Below are positions 1,883-7,204 of a stretch of 64,000 nucleotides of DNA, piece after piece; within the stretch, counting starts at the first letter, position 1, and every line of letters begins with the position of its first letter. Made by a program: the position numbers and the translations under genes. The stretch is from Blastococcus sp. PRF04-17 (lineage in GTDB: Bacteria; Actinomycetota; Actinomycetes; Mycobacteriales; Geodermatophilaceae): the NCBI RefSeq assembly GCF_023016265.1, contig NZ_CP095412.1, forward strand, positions 3,162,001-3,226,000, read 5' to 3'. Under the pieces are notes generated by a model, which was not told the origin of the DNA, made no database searches, and saw nothing but the letters and a program-made list of their open reading frames with translations.

Positions 1883-1981
1883 CGCCGCCGCCGCTACAGC
1901 GGCCTGCGCCCGTCCCAGGGTGTGCCACGGGGGCACATCACGACTGGCTGCGCAGCCGCCCCGCTCACCACCCATTCACCA

Positions 1982-2017
1982 GCGCGTCATCTCACTTCTC
2001 AGGGCTCGATGACGCGC
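1982..2017 (+). promoter_or_regulatory. Leader hairpin, copy 1 (conserved-loop element)
   Basis: A perfect 10-bp stem (GCGCGTCATC paired with GATGACGCGC) encloses the 16-nt loop TCACTTCTCAGGGCTC. It ends 23 nt before the ATG of the first LAYTG repeat protein and is followed by an AAGGA ribosome site. The same loop recurs before the next two genes with different but still paired stems, which suggests a structured RNA leader or a protein-binding site. It lacks a T-run, so it does not look like a terminator. Confidence 0.7.
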
Positions 2018-2040
2018 CTCCAATCATAAGGACAGGAACG

Positions 2041-3174
2041 ATGAGACGAACCGTGAGAAACGGTCTCGCGATCGCCGGAATGGCCGGGGGCATGCTGTTC
2101 CTCGGCCAGGCGGTGGCCAGCGCCGACGAGCAGGCCGCCGGTGCCGAGTCCGGCACCGAGGTCATCCAGGAGTCGACCAGCACCTCGGGCGACGGTGCCG
2201 GCAACGCCAACTCCAGCAACAACGAGTCGTCGGCCAACAACTCCAACACCACGACGGTCGTGACCGACGTCGAGGGCGGCGACGGGGGCTCGAACTCCGC
2301 GTCGGTCAACACCGGCATCATCGAGGACGGCGGCATCAGCCGGACCTCCACCGAGTACGAGGAGCCCAACGGCGGCAGCGAGGTCGCCCTCGACCTCGAG
2401 ACCGGCGACGTCAAGGTCGTGCAGGAGGCCAACGGCGGCAACGTCAGCGGCAGCGGCAACGCGCACGTCTCCGGCGGCCCGAACCAGACCGCCACCGCCA
2501 CCGCCACCACCGCCGTGCACCAGACGGCGACCTCCGAGGGCGGCTCGCAGAACGGCAACTCCTCCGCCAGCTACATGGGCGGCGGCGACGGCGCCGGCAA
2601 CGCCAACTCCAGCAACAACGAGTCGTCGGCCAACAACTCCAACACCACGACGGTCGTGACCGACATCGAGGGCGGCGACGGCGGAAGCAACTGGGTCGAG
2701 ATCAACACCGGCCTGATCGGCGTCACCTTCAACTGCCCCGAGGGCTCCACCTGCTACTTCAACATCAAGACCGGTGACGTCTACGTGCACCAGGAGGCCA
2801 ACGGCGGCAACGTCACCAACAGCGGCAACGTCAGCATCGGTGACAAGGACGGCCACGGCCACGGCCCCAAGCCCGGCCCCAAGCCCGGCCCCAAGCCCGG
2901 CGACAAGCCCGGCGCCAAGCCCGGCGCCAAGCCCGGTGACAAGCCCGGTGACGGCCACGACTGCCCCAAGGAGACGGTGACTCCGCCCAAGAAGCCCATC
3001 GCTCCGACCTACCACGCCCCGAAGCACAGCTCCGCCCAGCCGAGCGGTCAGCTGGCCTACACCGGAGCCACCGGTGAGGACAGCTCCCTCGGCCTGACCC
3101 TGGGCCTGCTGGCCCTCGGCGCGGGCGGCGCACTCACCATGGCCGGCCGCCGCCGCGAGACGGCGACGGTCTGA
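2041..3174 (+). CDS. LAYTG-anchored Asn/Gly-rich repeat surface protein, copy 1
   Basis: A 377-residue exported protein. The signal peptide is residues 1-27 (MRRTVRNGLAIAGMAGGMLF, cleavage after AVASA). Two repeats of roughly 115-130 residues follow, from about 50 and 182. Each repeat has three parts: DGAGNANSSNNESSANNSNT, then a G-rich DGG.N..VNTG turn, then TGDVKV..EANGGNVSGSGN. A Lys-Pro-Gly spacer (GPKPGPKPGDKPG units) leads to the sorting signal: LAYTG at 338-342, a hydrophobic helix (LGLTLGLLALGAGGAL) and the tail GRRRE. LAXTG is the class E sortase motif, and such a sortase lies downstream at 6332. The periodic Asn/Ser/Thr/Gly pattern suggests a beta-solenoid or amyloid-like fold (inference). 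Nearest known analogues in role are the LAXTG-anchored long chaplins of Streptomyces, although sequence similarity to them is not evident. Confidence 0.75.
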   Translation: MRRTVRNGLAIAGMAGGMLFLGQAVASADEQAAGAESGTEVIQESTSTSGDGAGNANSSNNESSANNSNTTTVVTDVEGGDGGSNSASVNTGIIEDGGISRTSTEYEEPNGGSEVALDLETGDVKVVQEANGGNVSGSGNAHVSGGPNQTATATATTAVHQTATSEGGSQNGNSSASYMGGGDGAGNANSSNNESSANNSNTTTVVTDIEGGDGGSNWVEINTGLIGVTFNCPEGSTCYFNIKTGDVYVHQEANGGNVTNSGNVSIGDKDGHGHGPKPGPKPGPKPGDKPGAKPGAKPGDKPGDGHDCPKETVTPPKKPIAPTYHAPKHSSAQPSGQLAYTGATGEDSSLGLTLGLLALGAGGALTMAGRRRETATV

Positions 3175-3180
3175 ACCGTC

Positions 3181-3214
3181 GGTCCGCCGCCCGGACCACT
3201 CCGGGCGGCGGACC
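3181..3214 (+). terminator. Hairpin terminator after LAYTG gene copy 1
   Basis: A perfect 15-bp stem (GGTCCGCCGCCCGGA and its complement) with loop CCAC starts 7 nt after the stop codon. There is no T-run, as is common for actinobacterial terminators. The same structure follows the second copy and a degenerate one follows the third repeat gene. Confidence 0.75.
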
Positions 3215-3247
3215 GGCAGCCACATCGACCACATCACCCATTCACCA

Positions 3248-3283
3248 GCGTGTCGCCTCACTTCTCAGGGCTCGGCGGCACGC
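3248..3283 (+). promoter_or_regulatory. Leader hairpin, copy 2 (conserved-loop element)
   Basis: Stem GCGTGTCGCC pairs with GGCGGCACGC over 10 positions, one of them a T-G (U-G in RNA) pair, around the same 16-nt loop TCACTTCTCAGGGCTC. It ends 22 nt before the ATG at 3306. Compared with copy 1, several stem positions differ on both sides with pairing kept, while the loop is unchanged. The wobble pair favours an RNA structure over a DNA operator. Confidence 0.7.
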
Positions 3284-3305
3284 AACCGTTCCAGGGAGAA
3301 CAACG

Positions 3306-4469
3306 ATGAGACGAACCGTGAGAAACGGTCTCGCGATCGCCGGAATGGCCGGGGGCATGCTGTTCCTCGGCCAGGCGGTGGCCAGCGCCGACGAGCAGGC
3401 CGCCGGTGCCGAGTCCGGCACCGAGGTCATCCAGGAGTCGACCAGCACCTCGGGCGACGGTGCCGGCAACGCCAACTCCAGCAACAACGAGTCGTCGGCC
3501 AACAACTCCAACACCACGACGGTCGTGACCGACGTCGAGGGCGGCGACGGGGGCTCGAACTCCGCGTCGGTCAACACCGGCATCATCGAAGGCGGCCCGC
3601 AGGGTCAGCCGCTGCCGGAGCTGACCTCCACCGAGTACGAGGAGCCCAACGGCGGCAGCGAGGTCGCCCTCGACCTCGAGACCGGCGACGTCAAGGTCGT
3701 GCAGGAGGCCAACGGCGGCAACGTCAGCGGCAGCGGCAACGCGCACGTCTCCGGCGGCCCGAACCAGACCGCCACCGCCACCGCCACCACCGCCGTGCAC
3801 CAGACGGCGACCTCCGAGGGCGGCTCGCAGAACGGCAACTCCTCCGCCAGCTACATGGGCGGCGGCGACGGCGCCGGCAACGCCAACTCCAGCAACAACG
3901 AGTCGTCGGCCAACAACTCCAACAGCACGACGGTCGTGACCGACATCGAGGGCGGCGACGGCGGAAGCAACTGGGTCGAGATCAACACCGGCCTGATCGG
4001 CGTCACCTTCAACTGCCCCGAGGGCTCCACCTGCTACTTCAACATCAAGACCGGTGACGTCTACGTGCACCAGGAGGCCAACGGCGGCAACGTCACCAAC
4101 AGCGGCAACGTCAGCATCGGTGACAAGGACGGCCACGGCCACGGCCCCAAGCCCGGCCCCAAGCCCGGCCCCAAGCCCGGCGACAAGCCCGGCGCCAAGC
4201 CCGGTGACAAGCCCGGCGCCAAGCCCGGTGACGGCCACGACTGCCCCAAGGAGACGGTGACTCCGCCCAAGAAGCCCATCGCTCCGAGCTACCACGCTCC
4301 GACGTACCACGCGCCGAAGCACAGCTCCGCCCAGCCGAGCGGTCAGCTGGCCTACACCGGAGCCACCGGTGAGGACAGCTCCCTCGGCCTGACCCTGGGC
4401 CTGCTGGCCCTCGGCGCGGGCGGCGCGCTCACCATGGCCGGCCGCCGCCGCGAGACGGCGACGGTCTGA
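3306..4469 (+). CDS. LAYTG-anchored Asn/Gly-rich repeat surface protein, copy 2
   Basis: A 387-residue near-twin of the preceding gene: identical signal peptide, two Asn-rich repeats, KPG spacer and LAYTG sorting signal (348-352) with hydrophobic helix and basic tail. It differs by a longer insert after the first VNTGIIE (GGPQGQPLPEL in place of DGGISR), a rearranged KPG tract and an added YHAPT segment. The ribosome site is CAGGGAGAA upstream of the ATG. It has its own leader hairpin and its own terminator, so each gene is probably transcribed as a separate unit. It is expected to be exported by Sec and linked to peptidoglycan by the class E sortase encoded nearby. Fold and partner are not known. 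Confidence 0.75.
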   Translation: MRRTVRNGLAIAGMAGGMLFLGQAVASADEQAAGAESGTEVIQESTSTSGDGAGNANSSNNESSANNSNTTTVVTDVEGGDGGSNSASVNTGIIEGGPQGQPLPELTSTEYEEPNGGSEVALDLETGDVKVVQEANGGNVSGSGNAHVSGGPNQTATATATTAVHQTATSEGGSQNGNSSASYMGGGDGAGNANSSNNESSANNSNSTTVVTDIEGGDGGSNWVEINTGLIGVTFNCPEGSTCYFNIKTGDVYVHQEANGGNVTNSGNVSIGDKDGHGHGPKPGPKPGPKPGDKPGAKPGDKPGAKPGDGHDCPKETVTPPKKPIAPSYHAPTYHAPKHSSAQPSGQLAYTGATGEDSSLGLTLGLLALGAGGALTMAGRRRETATV

Positions 4470-4475
4470 ACCGTC

Positions 4476-4509
4476 GGTCCGCCGCCCGGACCACTCCGGG
4501 CGGCGGGCC
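4476..4509 (+). terminator. Hairpin terminator after LAYTG gene copy 2
   Basis: Stem GGTCCGCCGCCCGGA with its complement (one T-G pair), loop CCAC, beginning 7 nt after the stop codon. It is equivalent to the hairpin at 3181-3214. Confidence 0.7.
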
Positions 4510-4561
4510 GGCACCCGGTCGGGGAGACCGGCCCGGTATCCCCGGCGACCGCACCACCAGA

Positions 4562-4594
4562 GCGTCGCCTCACTTCTCAGGGCTCGGGCGACGC
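4562..4594 (+). promoter_or_regulatory. Leader hairpin, copy 3 (conserved-loop element)
   Basis: An 8-bp stem (GCGTCGCC with GGCGACGC) carries the loop TCACTTCTCAGGGCTC plus one extra G. It ends 22 nt before the ATG at 4617, the same spacing as the other two copies. The downstream gene is clearly diverged from the first two, so conservation of the loop here is not explained by the recent duplication. Confidence 0.7.
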
Positions 4595-4616
4595 ACAACC
4601 GTTCCAGGGGGAACAC

Positions 4617-6170
4617 ATGAAACGCACAGCGAGGAACGCTCTCGTCGTAGCCGGAATGGCAGGGGGGCTCTTCTTCCTCGGCCAAGCCGTTGCCGGCGCC
4701 GACGAGGGAGCGGGCAACGCCAACACGAGCAACAACGAGGCGTCGGCCACCAACTCCAACACCACGACGGTCACGACCAGCGTCGAGGGCGGCAGCGGCG
4801 GCACCAACTCCGCGGCGGTCAACACCGGAGCCATCGTCGGCGGCGGCGGCATCATGACGGCGCCGGCGAGCACCGCCTCGACCAGCTCCGCTCCTCCGCC
4901 CAACGGCGGAGGCGGTGGTGGGGTGGCCGTGAAGACGGGTGACGTCAAGGTCTCGCAGCAGGCCAACGGCGGCAGCGTGAGCGGCAGCGGCAACGTGCAC
5001 GTCTCCGGCGGCCCGAAGCAGACCGCCACCGCCACTGCGGACACCACGGTCCACCAGACCGCCGCGTCCAAGAACCACGGCGGCGGGGCGGGCAACGCCA
5101 ACACGAGCAACAACCAGGCGTCGGCCAGCAACACGAACACGACCACGGTCAGCACCGACGTCCGGGGCGGCAACGGCGGGGTCAACTCCGCCGCGGTCAA
5201 CACCGGCCTCATCCTCGATCTCGGCTTTGGTCGTGACCTCGCGGCCACGACCAGCGGCTCACCGGGACACGAGGGCGGCGGTGTCGAGGTGACGACAGGT
5301 GACGTCCACCTGAAGCAGCAGGCCAACGGCGGCGACGTCCACAACAGCGGCAACGTGTCGATCAAGGGCGGAGCGCACCAGACCGCCACGGCGCACGCCG
5401 ACACCGCCGTCCACCAGAAGGCCCGTTCGAAGGGCCACGGCGACGGGGCCTACAACCTCAACGTCAGCAACAACGAGGCCTCCGCCAGCAACTACAACTC
5501 GACGACGGTCACGACCTACGTCGCAGGAGGTGACGGCGGCTACAACAGCGCCGAGGTGAATACCGGGGCCATCATCTTCTTCGGCTTCTTCGGTCCGCTG
5601 GCGAGCAGCGGCGGGGAGTACGAGGAAGGCGGCTTCGTGGTGGAGACCGGTGACGTCTGGCTGAAGCAGCAGGCCAACGGCGGTGACGTCCACAACAGCG
5701 GCAACGTGTCGATCAAGGGCGGAGCGCACCAGACCGCCACGGCACACGCCACCACCACCGTCCACCAGAAGGCCCACTCGAAGGGCCACGGCGACGGGGC
5801 CTACAACCTCAACGTCAGCAACAACGAGGCCTCCGCCAGCAACTACAACTCGACGACGGTCACGACCTACGTCACGGGCGGCGACGGCGGCAGCAACGAG
5901 GCCTTCGTCAACACCGGCGCCATCATCTTCTTCGGCTTCTTCGCTCCGTTCAGCACCAGCGGTGCGGAGTACGAGGAAGGCGGCTTCGTGGTGGACACCG
6001 GTGACGTCTACGTGAAGCAGCAGGCCAACGGCGGCGACGTCCGCAACAGCGGCAACGTGTCGATCAAGGGCGGAGCGCACCAGACCGCCACGGCACACGC
6101 CACCACCACCGTCCACCAGAAGGCCCACTCGAAGGGCGTTCGCGGGGACTACTGCAAGAAGACCGTCTGA
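4617..6170 (+). CDS. Secreted four-repeat Asn/Gly-rich protein without sorting signal
   Basis: A 517-residue exported protein related to the two LAYTG proteins. The signal peptide MKRTARNALVVAGMAGGLFF ends near VAGA. Four repeats of about 118 residues follow (starts near 29, 156, 274 and 392). Each has GAGNANTSNNEAS or GAYNLNVSNNEASASNYNS, then a GDGG.NSA.VNTG turn, a variable insert, and TGDVYVKQQANGGDV.NSGN with SIKGGAHQTATAHA. Repeats 3 and 4 carry an unusual aromatic insert, AIIFFGFF. There is no LAXTG and no C-terminal membrane helix; the protein stops at GVRGDYCKKTV with a single Cys near the end. It may be released or may co-assemble with the anchored paralogues (inference). The ribosome site is CAGGGGGAA. 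Confidence 0.7.
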   Translation: MKRTARNALVVAGMAGGLFFLGQAVAGADEGAGNANTSNNEASATNSNTTTVTTSVEGGSGGTNSAAVNTGAIVGGGGIMTAPASTASTSSAPPPNGGGGGGVAVKTGDVKVSQQANGGSVSGSGNVHVSGGPKQTATATADTTVHQTAASKNHGGGAGNANTSNNQASASNTNTTTVSTDVRGGNGGVNSAAVNTGLILDLGFGRDLAATTSGSPGHEGGGVEVTTGDVHLKQQANGGDVHNSGNVSIKGGAHQTATAHADTAVHQKARSKGHGDGAYNLNVSNNEASASNYNSTTVTTYVAGGDGGYNSAEVNTGAIIFFGFFGPLASSGGEYEEGGFVVETGDVWLKQQANGGDVHNSGNVSIKGGAHQTATAHATTTVHQKAHSKGHGDGAYNLNVSNNEASASNYNSTTVTTYVTGGDGGSNEAFVNTGAIIFFGFFAPFSTSGAEYEEGGFVVDTGDVYVKQQANGGDVRNSGNVSIKGGAHQTATAHATTTVHQKAHSKGVRGDYCKKTV

Positions 6171-6331: not shown

Positions 6332-7204
6332 GTGAGCACCGCAGTGCACCCCGACACCACCCGCGCCGCCTCGTCGGACGGCGAGGAGCGGCCGGCTGCC
6401 CGGCGCACCGGGGATCTCGCCCGCACGCTCGCCCGCGGAGTGGGTCAGACGCTGCTCACGGTCGGGTTCGTCGTGCTGCTGTTCGTGGCGTACCAGTTGT
6501 GGTTCACCGACGTGCTCGCGGCCCGGGAGCAGCAGCAGCTCGCCGAGGAGATCCAGGAGCAGTGGGCCTCCGCGCCCACCGTCGAGCAGCCCGCGGCGCC
6601 GCCGGCGCCCGCCGCCGGGGCACCGACCCAGGCGCCCGCCGCGGCTCCGGAACCGGCGCCGCCGGCGATCGACGTCGCGGTCGGCCAGCCCTTCTCGATC
6701 CTGCACGTCCCCGCGCTGGGAGAGGAGTACGCGCGGGTCGTCGTCGAGGGCGTCTCCCAGGTCGAACTGGCTCAGGGACCGGGTCACTACATCGGCACGG
6801 CGATGCCCGGCGAACAGGGCAACTTCGCCGTCGCCGGCCACCGCGTCGGTCATGGCGCCCCGTTCCTCGACCTGGACACGCTGCGGCCAGGCGATCCCAT
6901 CGTGGTGGAGACCGAGGGGCACTGGTTCACCTACCGGGTGCTGGGCGACCCCACCACGGGCGACTTCTCCACCGATCCGAGCGGGATCCCGGGACGCCGG
7001 ATCGTGCATCCGACCGACGTGGCAGTCATCTCGCCGACCCCCGGCGGCACGGCCGACGAGCCGGCGAGCGGCGCCTACCTCACCCTGACGACCTGTCACC
7101 CCAAGTACTCGGCGCAGCAGCGGCTGATCATCCACGCGGCGCTCGACGGGGCGCCGTTGAGCAAGGCCACCGCCCCCGACGGACCGTCGGCGCTGAACGG
7201 CTGA
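6332..7204 (+). CDS. srtE: Class E sortase
   Basis: A 290-residue membrane-anchored transpeptidase. After a short cytoplasmic N-terminus there is one membrane helix (LLTVGFVVLLFVAYQLWF, about 46-63), a Pro/Ala-rich linker, and the sortase domain from about residue 110. The catalytic residues are visible: His170 in AVAGHRVGHGAPF, Cys255 in TLTTCHP and Arg264 in SAQQRLIIHA. The TLTTCHP signature and length fit class E, which cleaves LAXTG and joins the Thr to peptidoglycan. The two LAYTG proteins just upstream are obvious substrates. The GTG start at 6332 follows AGGGGAA. In Streptomyces and relatives srtE often sits near crgA and the pabA-like gene; here it is about 42 kb away, beside its substrates. 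Confidence 0.92.
   Translation: MSTAVHPDTTRAASSDGEERPAARRTGDLARTLARGVGQTLLTVGFVVLLFVAYQLWFTDVLAAREQQQLAEEIQEQWASAPTVEQPAAPPAPAAGAPTQAPAAAPEPAPPAIDVAVGQPFSILHVPALGEEYARVVVEGVSQVELAQGPGHYIGTAMPGEQGNFAVAGHRVGHGAPFLDLDTLRPGDPIVVETEGHWFTYRVLGDPTTGDFSTDPSGIPGRRIVHPTDVAVISPTPGGTADEPASGAYLTLTTCHPKYSAQQRLIIHAALDGAPLSKATAPDGPSALNG

Follow-up and report, generated by a model that had tools for sequence, protein, structure and literature searches.

The window analysed here, 64,000 nucleotides (nt) from Blastococcus sp. PRF04-17 (contig NZ_CP095412.1, positions 3,162,001 to 3,226,000), holds three surface-protein genes in a row, each preceded by a short hairpin that we call H2. The hairpins, the genes and the putative ribosome-binding sites, the last predicted from the sequence, are laid out as follows.

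1982..2017, forward strand: H2 copy 1, arms GCGCGTCATC/GATGACGCGC, loop TCACTTCTCAGGGCTC
2028..2032, forward strand: Shine-Dalgarno-like AAGGA of gene 1, predicted, outside H2
2041..3174, forward strand: surface protein gene 1, signal peptide MRRTVRNGLAIAGMAGG..., Asn/Gly-rich repeats, LAYTG anchor
3248..3283, forward strand: H2 copy 2, arms GCGTGTCGCC/GGCGGCACGC, loop as in copy 1
3294-3300: Shine-Dalgarno-like site after copy 2, predicted
3306..4469, forward strand: surface protein gene 2, a near copy of gene 1, LAYTG anchor
4562..4594, forward strand: H2 copy 3, arms GCGTCGCC/GGCGACGC, loop as in copy 1 plus one G
About 4606-4612: Shine-Dalgarno-like site after copy 3, predicted
4617..6170, forward strand: surface protein gene 3, diverged, signal peptide family shared with genes 1 and 2
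6332..7204, forward strand: sortase gene (PF04203, E 5.8e-30), downstream of the surface genes

A sequence-only reading of this stretch had proposed the three hairpins as a functional leader RNA. The coordinates and arms that it gave, and the U-G pair in copy 2, are all correct, as is the distance from hairpin to ATG (23, 22 and 22 nt for copies 1, 2 and 3). The 16-nt loop that it called identical is indeed shared by all three, but copy 3 carries an extra G, so that its 8-bp arms are 17 nt apart. In the window the exact 16-mer is found at three places, where 0.44 matches are expected with up to three mismatches (two of 100 shuffles reach three), and the whole genome (4,585,415 bases), searched with up to two mismatches, has it only at the three known copies. 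Folded alone, the hairpins have z-scores of -4.5, -3.5 and -3.0, with 0, 1 and 3 of 200 shuffles folding equally well; folded with their flanks they are mildly unusual (z -1.8, -2.2 and -1.3). Leaders 2 and 3 have most of the 22-nt linker in common, and leaders 1 and 2 have the upstream CACCCATTCACCAGCG in common, so the three leaders share ancestry. The argument that recent ancestry does not explain the hairpins is weaker than stated: gene 3 has diverged (60-63% identity, matched stretches only), but the leaders share their flanks pairwise. The case for a functional element is stronger in other species than in the three copies of the window.

Leaders of the same gene family were gathered from related genomes (43, after three more matches without a start codon had been dropped; one was too short, leaving 42 scored), and their loops were sorted into classes by eye. 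The loop of the window, class A, stands at the same position before orthologues in five other species, our genomes G008 (three genes), G004, G003, G006 and G014, the last on a contig that ends inside the loop. Its core, CACTTCTCAGGGC, is exact in seven of the nine complete class A hairpins (five species), with one T fewer in G008 copy 3 and one T more in G006, and the arms vary. When eight distinct class A hairpins were aligned, the identical G008 copies 1 and 2 being counted once and G014 excluded, 98.7% of cells were paired and one cell was unpaired. Three pairs show two-sided change, a count reached by 15 of 500 shuffles, and there are six two-sided cells against 1.7 in shuffles, with none of 500 as high; at any slid register the number of two-sided changes is zero. 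A larger set of class A and class BC stems (16 of 22 hand-delimited hairpins, excluding four of class D and two repeats, and assuming that the inner pairs of the classes are homologous) is 99.3% paired and has 11 two-sided cells against 3.2 and four pairs with two-sided change against 1.7 (1.8% of shuffles as high). Kinship among the sequences inflates counts of this kind. RNAalifold, given 12 chosen leaders, recovers H2 unprompted, with a small covariation term of -0.51. The core of the proposal is borne out: a structured leader, associated with surface-protein genes, whose stem is re-paired and whose loop is conserved by class.

The wide spread that had been anticipated from a covariance-model search was not found. 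Our class A model, R1, gave nine strong matches (E 7e-6 or better; best remaining match E 0.0025) in five of 112 genomes of the taxonomic family, all before orthologous surface genes. Some R1 match at E 1 or better is present in 57 of the 112, and in none of the nine weak loci inspected was there a CTTCTCAGGG loop. Among 397 genomes drawn from the order, R1 found nothing new of comparable strength: its six strong matches belong to G008 and the window's own genome, and the remaining class A genomes are absent, presumably because they were not drawn. The exact 16-mer is present in one of 116 genomes, the window's own. At two mismatches, 70 genomes gave 46 loop matches against 36 in a reversed control, so most arise by chance; those preceding the gene family were kept, and G008:C11 and G001:C86 were among those dropped after inspection. 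Since strong R1 matches are confined to one locus, both in five of the 112 family genomes and in the order draw, class A is a single-locus element of some Blastococcus species, not a regulon. The sequence-only reading had itself named hits at this locus alone, with no further covariation, as the outcome that would speak against it; the hits are indeed at this locus alone, but further covariation does exist, pair 8 being G-C in G003 and pair 6 U-G in G006.

Elsewhere, members of this gene family are often preceded, at about the same position, by a hairpin whose loop is different. Class BC, with the loop TCMTACCC, is found in tunisiensis, haudaquaticus, two saxobsidens strains, atacamensis, TF02A-35, TBT05-19, litoris gene 2 and G012. 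Class D, with the nearly invariant loop ATCCATGGCYCYG, is found in aurantiacus, massiliensis, aggregatus, DSM 44205 and litoris gene 1, and lies 40-55 nt upstream of the start codon in the four leaders measured. In Blastococcus litoris (G013) the two classes meet, D in front of one gene and BC in front of the following one. In most Klenkia the hairpin is GTGCG-CAACGA-CGCAC, and the stem scan favours other pairings there; G063, which shares its numbered genus with a Modestobacter metagenome-assembled genome, has GCGCG-ATGA-CGCGC; and other leaders fit no loop class. Of the 42 leaders, 16 have a stem of at least eight pairs whose end lies 19-26 nt before the start codon; the share is 5.1% among 5,000 segments drawn at random from the window and 1.5% among 274 control segments of similar composition. 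Irrespective of position, stems of at least eight pairs occur in 40% of leaders, 26% of random segments and 3% of shuffled leaders. The class D loop (leaders L114, L110, L053, L132 and L127) contains the self-complementary CCATGG, with an ATG, which could permit loop-loop dimers or a short frame. A short coding frame, opened by an ATG that some class A members have in the 3' arm or by the one in the class D loop, was considered by eye and rejected: its register with the gene varies, and the ATG is missing from copies 2 and 3. Three genomes of one genus have in common another hairpin near the locus centre on the minus strand (L144, L146 and L147), with arms GGCGCGTCGTCGC and GCGACGGCGCGCC or GCGACGACGCGCC, directly after the stop codon of a Lys-rich frame; it is probably a terminator.

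Conservation within the classes was compared as mean pairwise identity. The eight class A hairpins give 0.87 for the loop, 0.80 for the arms, 0.69 for the linker, 0.72 for the upstream 30 nt and 0.84 for the first 45 nt of the gene; four of the five class D hairpins give 0.86, 0.75, 0.62, 0.63 and 0.86, respectively. That the loop differs among species, and between adjacent paralogues of one genome, speaks against one common ligand or regulator for all the leaders.

We suggest, with roughly even confidence, that H2 is a cis-acting mRNA leader hairpin that serves each surface-protein cistron through mRNA stability or translation, and whose class-specific loop is perhaps read by a partner. Comparison among species establishes the position of H2, the conservation of its loop within a class, the upkeep of its stem by two-sided changes and the restriction of class A to this locus. 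H2 is repeated before each cistron and the other leader hairpin of the locus, H1 (below), is not, so H2 most likely acts locally on each message. In the mechanism we envisage, H2 would act in the mRNA, cistron by cistron, shielding a 5' end that could be the primary one or could be made by processing in the unstructured C/A-rich stretch upstream of H2. It would also hold open the ribosome-entry stretch before the start codon, and the outcome would be a stable, well translated message for an abundant coat protein. In Blastococcus the loops would then have taken on class-specific sequences, probably read by an RNA-binding protein and less likely by a small RNA. An (A/G)GG(A/G) site lies in the 21-55 nt after the hairpin in 21 of 22 hand-delimited leaders (L132 has none), as would be expected of a stabilising stem-loop, which does not overlap that site.

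Several results weigh against this interpretation. Long stems are common in a window of 73% GC: at least six pairs are found in 80% of random segments and 71% of leaders, and at least seven in 51% and 52%, so that the leaders stand out by position and composition only; 12 of the 42 have no stem above five pairs in the scanned stretch. We count only four to five independent two-sided events, including the saxobsidens class BC stem, and the count of further pair types in the class A alignment does not exceed that of shuffles (473 of 500). In class BC (eight of nine hairpins) the whole loop, at 0.67, is less conserved than the arms, at 0.84, with 0.72 for the linker, 0.72 for the upstream 30 nt and 0.83 for the gene start. 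Over its first 45 nt the gene reaches about the level of loop conservation in classes A and D (0.84 and 0.86), and the loops therefore stand out against noncoding flanks only. A purely structural role, for its part, does not explain the class A and D loops. A sigma-70 scan found no promoter, so transcription could start after H2. The Shine-Dalgarno-like site is not predicted to be fully open, with a mean unpaired probability of 0.03-0.65 in 21 leaders, and none was found in L132.

The alternative that survives best, though we think it distinctly less likely, is that H2 is mainly a recognition hairpin whose loop binds a protein or small RNA acting in trans, which in turn switches translation or decay of the surface genes. 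The core CACTTCTCAGGGC persists through changes in the arms, and class D, with ATCCATGGCYCYG, shows the same behaviour in other species. Against this, the window's own genome has no further site for the loop, and the loops of Klenkia and the Modestobacter-type G063, judged by eye, are tiny. A 12-mer complement of most of the loop had ten matches in 16 genomes of the genus, seven of them the loops themselves and three with unrelated flanks, and the window's own genome has no exact 12-nt complement beyond the three loops, a search that did not cover shorter or mismatched seeds.

A more speculative extension, which we regard as improbable, is that the loops (CACTTCTCAGGGC, TCMTACCC, ATCCATGGCYCYG and the tiny loops) are a small, mutually exclusive set of exchangeable address tags, each with its own RNA-binding partner, on one scaffold, at one position and before one gene family. 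If so, loop exchange would put paralogous coat genes under different control, and B. litoris would carry two addresses in one operon. H2 is small and exactly bounded, and one gene family offers a natural series of its loop classes. Should the loops indeed have a reader, it would be an actinobacterial RNA-binding factor that has so far gone unrecognised.

The leader of the first gene contains two further conserved features, the first of them H1.

1920..1941, forward strand: H1, GTGTGCC-ACGGG-GGCACATCAC, before the first gene only, from the alignment and the RNAalifold consensus
1946..1964, forward strand: conserved block GGCTGCGCAGCCGCCCCGC after H1, GTGCAGCCGCCCC in many relatives, nearly invariant

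The general form of H1 is GTGTGCC-ACGGGG-GGCACATCAC, from which the copy in the window lacks one G. This pattern occurs 23 times in 21 of the 112 family genomes, with 21 sites before surface genes by coordinates and two in coding sequence; the window's own genome has the shorter form once. A regular expression finds H1 in 26 of 43 leaders and misses a variant in G008 and G004. One U-A pair becomes C-G in massiliensis and TF02A-30 and U-G in aggregatus and DSM 44205, and the stem may be an RNA structure or a DNA palindrome. Blastococcus, Klenkia and G063 all have H1, with its fixed ACGGGG-type loop, in front of first genes, and its conservation across the aligned leaders exceeds that of H2.

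It is conceivable, but unlikely, that H1, the GCCGCCCC block and H2 together form an attenuator for read-through from a Ser/Thr-rich gene into the surface operon. Across 12 aligned first-gene leaders H1 and the block hardly vary, and the CCCC of the block could, judging from its sequence, bind the G run of H1 and so replace the H1 pairing. However, H2 occurs in copies 2 and 3 with neither H1 nor the block, it is not followed by a T run, and the H1 pairs are invariant in the 12 leaders, so that covariation cannot test H1. Equally doubtful is the idea that H2 acts as DNA, a palindromic operator for a dimeric regulator. The arms GCGCGTC/GACGCGC are similar across many species, and class BC comes closer to the operator pattern of conserved half-sites around a free spacer. 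Classes A and D do the reverse, changing the arms and fixing the centre: within one genome the arms differ yet stay complementary around a fixed centre, and they differ again in class D and Klenkia. Common descent with recent gene conversion and no function, suggested by the pairwise-shared flanks and the near identity of genes 1 and 2, is very improbable given the two-sided changes in other species, class A and D loops that are kept better than their flanks, and a position common across the family.

The surface genes have other features of note. The proteins of the family are secreted and Asn/Gly-rich, with a common signal peptide. Wherever the sequence was read through to the C-terminus, a LAYTG or LAFTG anchor stands there, with gene 3 as the exception: it ends in GDYCKKTV despite sharing the signal peptide. 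A Pfam search with the product of gene 1 gave no family. At E 0.01, our alignment A1 has matches in 33 of the 112 family genomes, a few being weak. A signal-peptide alignment scan of named genomes, which may omit records of the window's own genome, gave 27 loci, of which 26 are titled Blastococcus, Klenkia or Modestobacter and one Bacillus sp. AZ43, a record marked unverified. The Lys-Pro-Gly repeat tracts (about 2864-2951 and 4144-4231) differ in unit order between the otherwise nearly identical genes 1 and 2. The interval between these genes contains another strong hairpin.

3181..3214, forward strand: strong GC-rich hairpin, terminator-like without a T run, with a twin at 4476-4509

These GC hairpins, which are absent from the T-run scan list, are possible terminators or 3' end protectors.

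H2 looks like a real, local, previously undescribed leader element of fast-changing surface-protein genes in Blastococcus and kindred soil bacteria rather than a riboswitch with many targets. It matches no Rfam family: at the gathering cut-off the window yields two tRNAs only, and twelve related loci (57,914 bases) yield no family. A lax scan of 1900-4700 returned nine sub-threshold matches (mir-341, Twister-P5 and others), which were set aside as far below their cut-offs. The titles and opening lines of abstracts returned by narrow literature searches hold no description of H2 or of RNA control of surface-coat genes in the Geodermatophilaceae, a family of soil and rock actinobacteria. Most known riboswitches are larger than a single stem of 8-11 pairs and its one loop, and nothing here points to ligand binding. 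One helix was seen in H2, and class A is at one locus only, both in its own genome and, by strong scores, among the 112 family genomes, not before several unlinked genes.

The preQ1-type riboswitches have a hairpin that hides the Shine-Dalgarno site in a pseudoknot. H2 resembles them as a hairpin with a pyrimidine-rich loop shortly before a purine-rich site, but a loop-linker pseudoknot found no support, as pairing is no better than with the linkers of other leaders: across 22 leaders the mean duplex energy is -6.40 against -6.25 for permuted linkers, and 34% of permutations are as good (shuffled loops, compared before one linker was corrected, gave -5.81, with 11.5% as good). Pairing of the loop with early codons (TTCTCA/TGAGAA) was likewise rejected by eye, since species with other loops have the same codons and G003 has others. 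Among actinobacterial candidates, the mraW motif has a fixed loop. The mraW and msiK motifs (RF01746 and RF01747) are presented in PMC2864571 as small actinobacterial cis-regulatory candidates. H2 is likewise a small actinobacterial leader RNA candidate, but these motifs precede other genes and gave no gathering-score match in the window or the 12 loci and none in the lax scan of 1900-4700. Stem-loops of the ompA type in 5' leaders stabilise bacterial mRNA. Such protective stem-loops are established, and PMC7509114 names the recA (Acinetobacter) and vacA (Helicobacter) leaders. Unlike these, H2 has a loop conserved by class, is repeated before each cistron of an array and is so far a putative stabiliser with a presumed place at a 5' end; like ompA, recA and vacA, it is a single leader stem-loop outside the Shine-Dalgarno site of a message for a surface or abundant protein.

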